Source of the DNA: Bradyrhizobium sp. KBS0727
GTDB lineage: Bacteria; Pseudomonadota; Alphaproteobacteria; Rhizobiales; Xanthobacteraceae
Assembly (NCBI RefSeq): GCF_005937885.2
Contig: NZ_CP042176.1
Location: forward strand, 3,219,501 to 3,283,500
Reading direction: 5' to 3'
Length of the DNA stretch: 64,000 nucleotides
The position numbers were made by a program, and so were the translations under genes. Below are positions 13,135 to 15,931 of this stretch, one piece after another. The stretch's first letter is position 1, and each line of letters opens with the position of its first letter. The notes beneath the pieces are model-generated. The model saw nothing but the letters and a program-made list of their open reading frames with translations. It made no database searches and had not been told where the DNA came from.

Positions 13135-14571
13135 ATGGCCGAGAATATCGACGTGGCCCAACCCGCCAAGGCGCGCGCCGGCGACGCCGCCGTGCTCGAC
13201 CATCTCCAGATGCGGGATCAAGACGGCCAAATCCGTCAGGAATTTGTCGAAGAGATTACGCGTGCCATCCGGGCCGGCGAAGCGCCACAGCTGCGTGAAG
13301 TCGTCGCGGAACTGCACGAGGCCGATCTCGGCGACCTGATCGGTGCGCTTGAACCCGAGGACCGCGTCAATCTGGTCGAATTGACCGGCACGGATTTCGA
13401 CTTCTCGGCGCTGAACGAGGTCGATGACGCCGTCCGCGAGGAAATCCTCGAGGAACTCGAACCGCAAACGGTCGCCGAAGGCGTTCGCGAACTGGAATCC
13501 GACGACGCCGTCGAACTGCTCGAGGGCCTCGACGAGGAGGACCAGGAAGAGATCCTGGAAAAGCTGCCGCCGTCCGAGCGCGACGCGCTGGAGCGCAGCC
13601 TGCTGTATCCGGAAAACTCCGCCGGCCGCCGTATGCAGTCCGAATTCATCGCGGTGCCGCCGGACTGGACCGTGGGGCAGGCGATCGACTACATGCGCGA
13701 CACGCCCGATCTGCCCGACCGCTTTTATGAAATCTACGTGGTCGATTCCGATAAGCACTGGCAGGGCGCGGTGTCGCTTGACGCGCTGTTGCGCGCGCGC
13801 CGCCCGGTCATGATCAGCGATCTCATTGACGAGGACCGCCGTCGCGTTTCGGTGCTGGACGACCAGGAAGAGGTCGCCCGGATGTTCGGCAAATACAATC
13901 TGGTCGCAGCCCCCGTGGTCGATACCACCGACCGTCTGGTCGGCGTCATCACCATCGACGACGTCGTCGACGTCATCGAGGAAGAGGCCGACGAAGACCT
14001 CAAGGCGCTCGGCGGCGTCACCAGCGACGAAGAACTGTCCGACAGCGTCTGGACCATCGCGCGGGCACGGTTCAACTGGCTGCTGGTCAATCTTGCGACG
14101 GCCTTTCTGGCATCCTCCGTGCTCGGCCTGTTCGAGGGCCAGCTCGAGAAGATGGTGGCGCTCGCGGTGCTGGCGCCGATCGTGGCGAGCCAGGGCGGCA
14201 ACGCCGCAACCCAGACCATGACGGTGGCGGTGCGGGCGCTGGCGACCCGCGAACTCGGATCCAAGAATGCCATGCGGGTGGTGATGCGCGAGGCGATGGT
14301 CGGCCTCGTCAACGGGCTCGCGTTTGCCGTGATCACGGGCGTTGCCGCCGTGGCCTGGTTCAAGATCCCCGGCCTCGGCATCGTGATCGGCCTTGCCATC
14401 ATCTGCAACCTGGTCGCCGGCGCGCTTGGTGGCATCCTGATCCCGATGGTGCTGGAGCGGGTTCGCGCCGATCCGGCGGTGGCATCGGGCACCTTCGTCA
14501 CCACCATCACCGACGTGGTCGGCTTCTTCTCGTTTCTCGGCATCGCCACGCTGTGGTTCGGGTTGCAATAG
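13135..14571 (+). CDS. mgtE: Magnesium transporter MgtE
   Basis: 478 residues from ATG at 13135 (MAENIDVAQ); an open frame extends 22 codons further up, but this start fits the family and has GAGG just upstream. The order is the acidic MgtE N-domain of helical repeats (ALEPEDRVNLVE, LLEGLDEEDQEEILEKLPPSER), two CBS domains (about 155-275), and five membrane helices from about 310 to the end with the pore motif PIVASQGGNAATQTM. It is a Mg2+ channel gated by cytoplasmic Mg2+ through the N and CBS domains. No M-box-like leader is evident in the 107 bases upstream. Confidence 0.95.
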   Translation: MAENIDVAQPAKARAGDAAVLDHLQMRDQDGQIRQEFVEEITRAIRAGEAPQLREVVAELHEADLGDLIGALEPEDRVNLVELTGTDFDFSALNEVDDAVREEILEELEPQTVAEGVRELESDDAVELLEGLDEEDQEEILEKLPPSERDALERSLLYPENSAGRRMQSEFIAVPPDWTVGQAIDYMRDTPDLPDRFYEIYVVDSDKHWQGAVSLDALLRARRPVMISDLIDEDRRRVSVLDDQEEVARMFGKYNLVAAPVVDTTDRLVGVITIDDVVDVIEEEADEDLKALGGVTSDEELSDSVWTIARARFNWLLVNLATAFLASSVLGLFEGQLEKMVALAVLAPIVASQGGNAATQTMTVAVRALATRELGSKNAMRVVMREAMVGLVNGLAFAVITGVAAVAWFKIPGLGIVIGLAIICNLVAGALGGILIPMVLERVRADPAVASGTFVTTITDVVGFFSFLGIATLWFGLQ

Positions 14572-14603: not shown

Positions 14604-14618
14604 TTAAGTGGGCCTTAA
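14604..14618 (+). promoter_or_regulatory. Perfect CtrA full box upstream of HTH gene
   Basis: TTAAGTGGGCCTTAA is exactly TTAA-N7-TTAA and is itself almost palindromic. It lies 39 bases before the start of the HTH-protein gene and 33 bases after the mgtE stop. Confidence 0.65.
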
Positions 14619-14656
14619 GGCGCATCGCCGATCATGTCGGGCCTACGAGGTCGAAC

Positions 14657-15028
14657 ATGCAGCGCCTGCGATTGAAAGCGGACGGACGGATCGTCGAATT
14701 GCGCGACGGGCAGGAGTTTCCGCTTGCGCCGGCGACGTCCGGGCTCGCGTCAGCGATGCCCGGGCTCGCGTCAGCGATGCCCGCCGAGGCTTTGACCGCC
14801 GGGCCCTGCGAAGCCGCCGCGTTACCTGCGGTGCGCGATTTGCGCCGCCGCGCGCGTCTCACCCAAACCGAATTCGCCAGCCGGCTCGGCGTACCCGTCG
14901 AAACCATCCGGAACTGGGAGCAGGGCAAGCGCGCCCCGCGTGGACCGGCACGGGCATTGCTCGCCGTGATCGCCCATTCGCCGGACACCGTGTTCGCGGC
15001 TTTGGCCAGCGAGCCGTCGCCCGCCTAA
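14657..15028 (+). CDS. Cro/C1-type helix-turn-helix protein
   Basis: 123 residues. Residues 1-55 form a low-complexity, Ala-rich N-terminal part containing GLASAMP twice, from a perfect 21-bp tandem duplication. Residues 58-110 hold a Cro/C1-type helix-turn-helix (RDLRRRARLTQTEFASRLGVPVETIRNWEQGKRAPRG), close to the DNA-binding half of HigA/NadS-like antitoxins. No toxin gene is adjacent, so a solitary regulator is more likely. The CtrA box just upstream suggests cell-cycle-linked expression (inference). Targets unknown. Confidence 0.82.
   Translation: MQRLRLKADGRIVELRDGQEFPLAPATSGLASAMPGLASAMPAEALTAGPCEAAALPAVRDLRRRARLTQTEFASRLGVPVETIRNWEQGKRAPRGPARALLAVIAHSPDTVFAALASEPSPA
14740..14781 (+). 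repeat. 21-bp perfect tandem repeat, two copies, inside HTH gene
   Basis: The unit CGGGCTCGCGTCAGCGATGC plus C occurs at 14740-14760 and 14761-14781 without mismatch. It encodes the duplicated heptapeptide GLASAMP and keeps the frame, so it is probably a recent slippage event and may vary in copy number among strains. Confidence 0.9.
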
Positions 15029-15112
15029 TTCTTCCGCTGCGCCCGAAGACGCCGCGAGTTGGCACCGCTGCCGCGGCGGCTCATAATGGGCGCTCGATGT
15101 GAGAGTACCCGT

Positions 15113-15931
15113 ATGAATTTTGTCGAGGCCAATGGCGCGAAAATTCCGGCGATCGGGCTGGGCACCTGGGAATTGCGCGGGCGGACCTGCGCGCGCCTCG
15201 TCGAGCAGGCGCTGCGGCTCGGCTATCGCCATGTCGATACCGCGCAGGCCTACGACAACGAGCGCGAGGTAGGAGACGGCCTGCGCGCCTCCGGCGTGAA
15301 GCGGGACGAGATATTCCTCACCACCAAGATCTGGACCACCCACTTCAAGCCGAACGATCTTGAGCGATCCGCCAAGGAGAGCCTGGCAAGGCTGCGCCTG
15401 ACCGAGGTCGACCTGCTGCTGCTGCATTGGCCGAACCCGCAGGTGCCGCTCGCCGACACGCTGGGCGCGCTGGCGCGGGTCAAGAGCCAAGGCTTGGCGC
15501 GCCATATCGGCGTGTCCAATTTCACGGTGGCGCTGATCGAGGAGGCGGTCGCGGTATGTCCGGAGCCGCTGGTGTGCGACCAGGTCGAGTATCATCCCTA
15601 TCTCGACCAGACCAAGGTCAGGGAGGCCTGCGCGCAGCACGGCATGGCTGTCGTGGCCTATAGCCCGGTCGCCAAGGGCCGCATCAAGAACGACCGCGCG
15701 CTGTTGCGGATCGGCGATCGCTACCGCAAGACCGCGGCGCAGGTTTGCCTGCGCTGGCTGGTGCAGCAGAATGTCGTGGCGATCCCGCGAACGTCGAAAC
15801 TGGAACGGCTGTCGGAGAACATCGAGATCTTCGATTTCGAACTGTTCGAGGACGACATGAAAGCGATTTCCGCCATGGGACGCGCCGACGGCCGGCTCAC
15901 CAATTTCGGTTTCGCGCCGAAATGGGATTGA
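15113..15931 (+). CDS. Aldo/keto reductase
   Basis: 272 residues from ATG at 15113 (MNFVEANGAKIPAIGLGTW); longer in-frame starts exist but add non-conserved sequence. It is an NADPH-dependent TIM-barrel reductase with the catalytic tetrad visible: Asp and Tyr in DTAQAYDNE (about 44-52), Lys in LTTKIW, and His in LLLLHWP. The cofactor-binding C-terminal segment IPRTSKLERLSENIEIFDFEL is typical of the AKR5/DkgA-like group. It probably reduces small carbonyls such as methylglyoxal or diketogluconate-like compounds; the substrate is not deducible. Confidence 0.92.
   Translation: MNFVEANGAKIPAIGLGTWELRGRTCARLVEQALRLGYRHVDTAQAYDNEREVGDGLRASGVKRDEIFLTTKIWTTHFKPNDLERSAKESLARLRLTEVDLLLLHWPNPQVPLADTLGALARVKSQGLARHIGVSNFTVALIEEAVAVCPEPLVCDQVEYHPYLDQTKVREACAQHGMAVVAYSPVAKGRIKNDRALLRIGDRYRKTAAQVCLRWLVQQNVVAIPRTSKLERLSENIEIFDFELFEDDMKAISAMGRADGRLTNFGFAPKWD

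Follow-up and report, generated by a model that had tools for sequence, protein, structure and literature searches.

CtrA is the cell-cycle master regulator in these bacteria, and CtrA regulons vary widely across alphaproteobacteria. Here we ask whether a small helix-turn-helix (HTH) gene of Bradyrhizobium sp. KBS0727 belongs to this network. A sequence-only reading of the window (the whole 64-kb stretch of DNA that was analysed) had noted a CtrA box ahead of a solitary Cro/C1-type regulator without a toxin partner, and had proposed that this could be an undescribed CtrA-network regulator. The features of the locus are as follows.

13135..14571, + strand: mgtE, Mg2+ transporter gene, upstream neighbour (Pfam MgtE, MgtE_N, CBS)
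14604..14618, + strand: predicted CtrA box TTAA-N7-TTAA, TTAAGTGGGCCTTAA, an exact match (invariant core of the conservation footprint, N7-specific family-wide)
14630..14635, + strand: -10-like hexamer GATCAT, with the invariant A (14631) placed at -11 (inferred assignment)
14642, + strand: predicted transcription start (±1), 24 nt past the box end with a 15-nt leader (from the A at -11 and the 23-24 nt rule)
14647..14650, + strand: Shine-Dalgarno-like GAGG (read from the sequence)
14657..15028, + strand: orphan XRE/HigA-type HTH regulator, 123 aa (ORF, Pfam, alignments, AlphaFold model, PDB neighbours)
15059-15087: sigma-70-like promoter TTGGCA-N17-CATAAT, 10/12, just ahead of the aldo/keto reductase gene (promoter scan)
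15113..15931, + strand: aldo/keto reductase gene, downstream neighbour (Pfam)

The predicted CtrA box in the window and in the host genome

The exact TTAA-N7-TTAA box that the sequence-only reading had described is present at 14604-14618 and is the only one in the window, where 0.03 would be expected; shuffling the window sequence produced the pattern in 3 of 100 shuffles. The claimed distance of 39 bases to the ATG at 14657 is correct by subtraction, with 38 bases intervening. Across the complete 7.3-Mb Bradyrhizobium genome the pattern occurs 41 times, compared with 23 matches for the N8, N9 and N10 spacings together (~8 per spacing), an approximately 5-fold enrichment of the N7 spacing; 16 relatives carry between 23 and 52 N7 sites per genome. 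The reversed pattern AATT-N7-AATT also has 41 matches in the host genome, but this control carries no information, since AATT pairs far outnumber TTAA pairs there (148 versus 23 at N8-10), and the N8-10 spacing controls were used in its place. The counts by themselves would allow some 8 of the 41 boxes in the genome to be chance matches; a lone box therefore proves little, and conservation decides.

The host genome encodes ctrA at 6,100,540, and its product is 94% identical to Caulobacter CtrA over 204 aa. Genes near the 41 boxes were called on 3-kb segments by a simple ORF finder, which placed boxes upstream of minC (with minD next), a flagellin gene, flgB, rlpA and an N-acetylmuramoyl-L-alanine amidase gene, as well as an rmuC-like gene, a polysaccharide export gene and a histidine kinase gene. 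At one flagellin gene (L086, G000:C1:4783184-4783233), three TTAA-N7-TTAA boxes, overlapping or adjacent to one another, lie within 50 bp ahead of the gene, and a second flagellin gene adjoins. The classes represented by minC, flagellin, flgB, rlpA, the amidase and the histidine kinase are known to be controlled by CtrA; in S. meliloti, for instance, CtrA targets minCD directly (PMC4433202). Because the boxes precede such classes, TTAA-N7-TTAA can be taken as a functional CtrA signal of the host genome, judging from gene content. No common -10 at a matching distance was seen among the other 40 genomic boxes, as expected if some of the genes are activated, others repressed and others divergent; this lends no extra support.

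Conservation of the gene and its box

Of 147 genomes of the genus, 145 carry an orthologue of the HTH gene, among them all 137 of high quality. Absence of the box in relatives had been named in advance as the finding that would count against the proposal; the box is instead retained. Among 80 named loci, every one of the 67 titled Bradyrhizobium has a box without mismatch in the 200 bp upstream. Within the host family (GTDB Xanthobacteraceae), 164 non-redundant upstream regions contain 104 perfect N7 sites and 43 with one mismatch, so that 147 of the 164 have at most one mismatch; the other spacings from 3 to 12 yield 0-1 perfect sites each in the same regions, and shuffled upstream sequences gave 0.15 perfect sites, or 3.05 when up to one mismatch was allowed. 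One further locus with a box, of Bradyrhizobium type, comes from a record titled Frankia sp. RB7 (L161, JAUEPE010000045.1), which is probably mislabelled or contaminated.

Anchoring 102 non-redundant upstream regions on the box revealed a sharply bounded footprint. The first half-site carries 1.80 bits and the second 1.97, the 11-bp spacer behind the second half-site 0.85 and the -10-like hexamer 1.2, compared with 0.12-0.23 for the outer flanks. In more distant genera the site takes the form TTAACC-N5-TTAACCAT, which, at the level of sequence, matches the published CtrA consensus: TTAACCAT is the form cited for Caulobacter CtrA sites (PMC6180460), and the Hyphomonas CtrA ChIP-seq motif is TTAA-N7-TTAAC (PMC7200025). 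The family-wide upstream scan found no good box in three distant genera (g3, g9 and g34).

The mismatched sites deserve separate consideration. All five Nitrobacter loci have a single mismatch, TTCA in the first half-site (TTCA-N7-TTAA); the variant lies ~40 nt ahead of the ATG in L044, L147 and the other Nitrobacter loci and is kept as such in several further genera. We considered TTCA-N7-TTAA as a general CtrA variant and rejected it, as 17 genomes hold 369 such sites against 389 per control spacing (N8-10), and the Nitrobacter-type sites consequently stay without explanation. For the same reason, nothing counts more heavily against a simple CtrA reading than the fixation of the TTCA half-site in Nitrobacter and other genera, which may represent either a weak, tuned site or a change in how CtrA acts there.

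Promoter geometry

At mapped CtrA-activated promoters, the CtrA site lies near -35 and ends 23-24 nt before the transcription start, and an A at -11 is invariant (PMC6180460). Across the 102 upstream regions, column +27, counted from the box start, is always A and column +31 always T. If the A of column 27 is taken as -11, the start falls at column 38, which corresponds to 14642 and lies 24 nt past the box end; the resulting spacing, predicted from sequence, fits that of published CtrA-activated promoters. GATCAT matches TATAAT poorly, and the G published at -4 has no match in this promoter. The box and the -10-like hexamer are the only conserved promoter elements in these regions, with no other strong one between the -10 and the ATG.

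A predicted orphan XRE regulator of the host family

The Cro/C1-type assignment of the sequence-only reading is borne out by Pfam, which matches residues 59-106 to HTH_31 and HTH_3 (1e-8 each), with scores above the gathering thresholds (35.3 versus 23 and 35.7 versus 27 bits for HTH_3/HTH_31). The protein consists of an N-terminal motif, MQRLRLKADGRIVELRDGxE (aa 1-25), a variable linker (aa 26-57) and the HTH (aa 58-118). Both ends are invariant among aligned relatives, including the stretch RLKADGRIVE..DG.E, and the linker differs in length; in the host gene, a 21-bp tandem repeat (14732-14783, 2.5 copies, 93%) encodes GLASAMP repeats in the linker. In the AlphaFold model (mean pLDDT 77), three strands form the N-terminal block (pLDDT about 80) and a disordered linker leads to five helices, with the HTH above 90. 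The nearest solved structures are Atu1735 (2ppx; 47% identity, TMt 0.84) and the HigA2 antitoxin C-terminal domain.

This C-terminal HTH resembles those of HigA2/MqsA-type antitoxins (PDB 5j9i, 5jaa, 3fmy) and of Atu1735 in both fold and sequence. Unlike these antitoxins, however, the protein has no toxin gene beside it, carries the RLKADGRIVE motif, for which Pfam and NCBIfam yielded no match, and falls below the family cut-offs of NadS (NF041265; 44.4 against 60 bits) and MqsA (35.7 against 61.8 bits, though the HTH domain is similar). As candidate orthologues outside the host family we rejected the order-wide matches examined, which share the HTH only and have neither the RLKADGR motif nor the box; since they lack the N-terminal motif, the full-length protein appears restricted to the host family.

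The gene stands alone between mgtE and the aldo/keto reductase gene, in agreement with the claim that it is solitary and without a toxin partner. Among 80 related loci, mgtE precedes the gene in 69, and the aldo/keto reductase gene follows it in at least 54. Because a separate sigma-70-like promoter precedes the aldo/keto reductase gene, transcription of the HTH gene is probably monocistronic.

Small XRE factors have been tied to CtrA and to development before. XrpA of Cereibacter sphaeroides is likewise an XRE regulator of about 120 aa linked to the CtrA network (PMC11999139), but its HTH is N-terminal rather than C-terminal, and it is a repressor upstream of ctrA that is expressed by RpoN3, whereas the gene described here apparently lies downstream of CtrA. 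Caulobacter StaR, RtrA/B and CdxA/B are small XRE factors of an alphaproteobacterial developmental network that are alike in kind; RtrA/B and CdxA/B differ in being controlled by SpdR-RtrC and in repressing hfiA and gafYZ (PMC10688885).

Interpretation of the conserved element

We consider it likely that 14604-14642 is a CtrA-activated promoter driving a monocistronic orphan XRE gene whose product serves as a second-tier transcription factor, and very probable, as a prediction, that CtrA activates the HTH gene, whose product is an uncharacterised orphan XRE regulator. The conservation of the box and the promoter geometry together support, at the level of prediction, the earlier proposal of an undescribed network member. 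Phosphorylated CtrA would occupy TTAA-N7-TTAA in place of a -35 element and would recruit RNA polymerase to the -10-like GATCAT, activating rather than repressing the gene. Transcription of this small (HigA/MqsA-like) gene would then take place during the period of CtrA activity, which by analogy falls late in the cell cycle, and the HTH protein would bind DNA as a second-tier transcription factor. As at the CtrA-activated promoters of Caulobacter and Rhodobacter sphaeroides fla2 (PMC6180460), a full site would cover -35, with 23-24 nt between it and the inferred start, an A at the inferred -11 and a short predicted leader; the differences are that the gene encodes an orphan XRE regulator, that the G at -4 is missing and that the first half-site is TTCA in some genera.

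The best of the rival explanations is that the conserved element is the HTH protein's own operator and not a CtrA site at all. Autoregulation is common among XRE/HigA regulators, and some Bradyrhizobium sites read CGTTAA-N7-TTAACG, an inverted repeat. A dyad test nevertheless did not favour this operator, as inverted-repeat matches were near chance (1.31 and 1.40 of 5, versus 1.25 expected with equal base use). Outside Bradyrhizobium, moreover, the flanks form a direct repeat (TTAACC...TTAACCAT), sites with exactly N7 are over-represented across the genome and mark genes of cell division and the flagellum, and a second strongly conserved element between the -10 and the ATG is lacking; we therefore regard an autoregulatory operator as unlikely. 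A coincidental, functionless match has even less to recommend it: although neighbouring spacings predict some chance boxes in the genome, as noted above, this one is perfect in all Bradyrhizobium loci inside unconserved flanks, and the footprint, the family-wide spacing test and the shuffles rule out a chance origin, to which we assign a negligible probability.

The remaining rivals accept a bound regulator. CtrA could bind the box and repress the HTH gene, as it does with certain targets, minCD of S. meliloti among them (PMC4433202); repressing sites, however, are described as half sites over the -10 (PMC6180460), whereas here a full site would lie over -35 at 23-24 nt from the inferred start, and repression is accordingly quite improbable. 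Another OmpR-family or unrelated activator might instead use the promoter, with the TTAA pair a coincidence of its own motif. The TTCA variant, kept in Nitrobacter and other genera and not enriched in a CtrA-like manner genome-wide, speaks for such an activator, but the form in distant genera is the CtrA consensus itself and the second half-site is nearly invariant, which leaves this reading slightly more improbable still.

Within the preferred reading, activation by CtrA, a more specific role may be postulated. SciP in Caulobacter is a CtrA-dependent feedback repressor, and by this model the HTH protein could be a lineage-specific second-tier cell-cycle repressor under CtrA that acts back on ctrA itself or on targets of CtrA, derived from a toxin-antitoxin-type HTH whose toxin-binding part was swapped for RLKADGRIVE. 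We offer this suggestion tentatively and consider it rather doubtful.

Significance

Our search of the main texts of open-access papers found no description of the HTH gene, and a full-text literature search found no mapped CtrA regulon for Bradyrhizobium. In its main text, a 2010 comparative survey of CtrA (PMC2877005) mentions neither Bradyrhizobium nor Rhodopseudomonas, and the text of a Bradyrhizobium start-site map (PMC4842269) makes no mention of CtrA. CtrA targets and XRE factors are known kinds of gene, and this member is undescribed as far as the open-access literature goes. A single-copy regulator found in every high-quality genus genome sampled, together with its box and -10-like hexamer, is a concrete candidate for a second-tier node. 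If the prediction is true, it would extend the cell-cycle circuit in soybean-nodulating bacteria and their relatives, with a bearing on CtrA-linked bacteroid differentiation, and would provide a case in which an antitoxin-type HTH was recruited into cell-cycle control.
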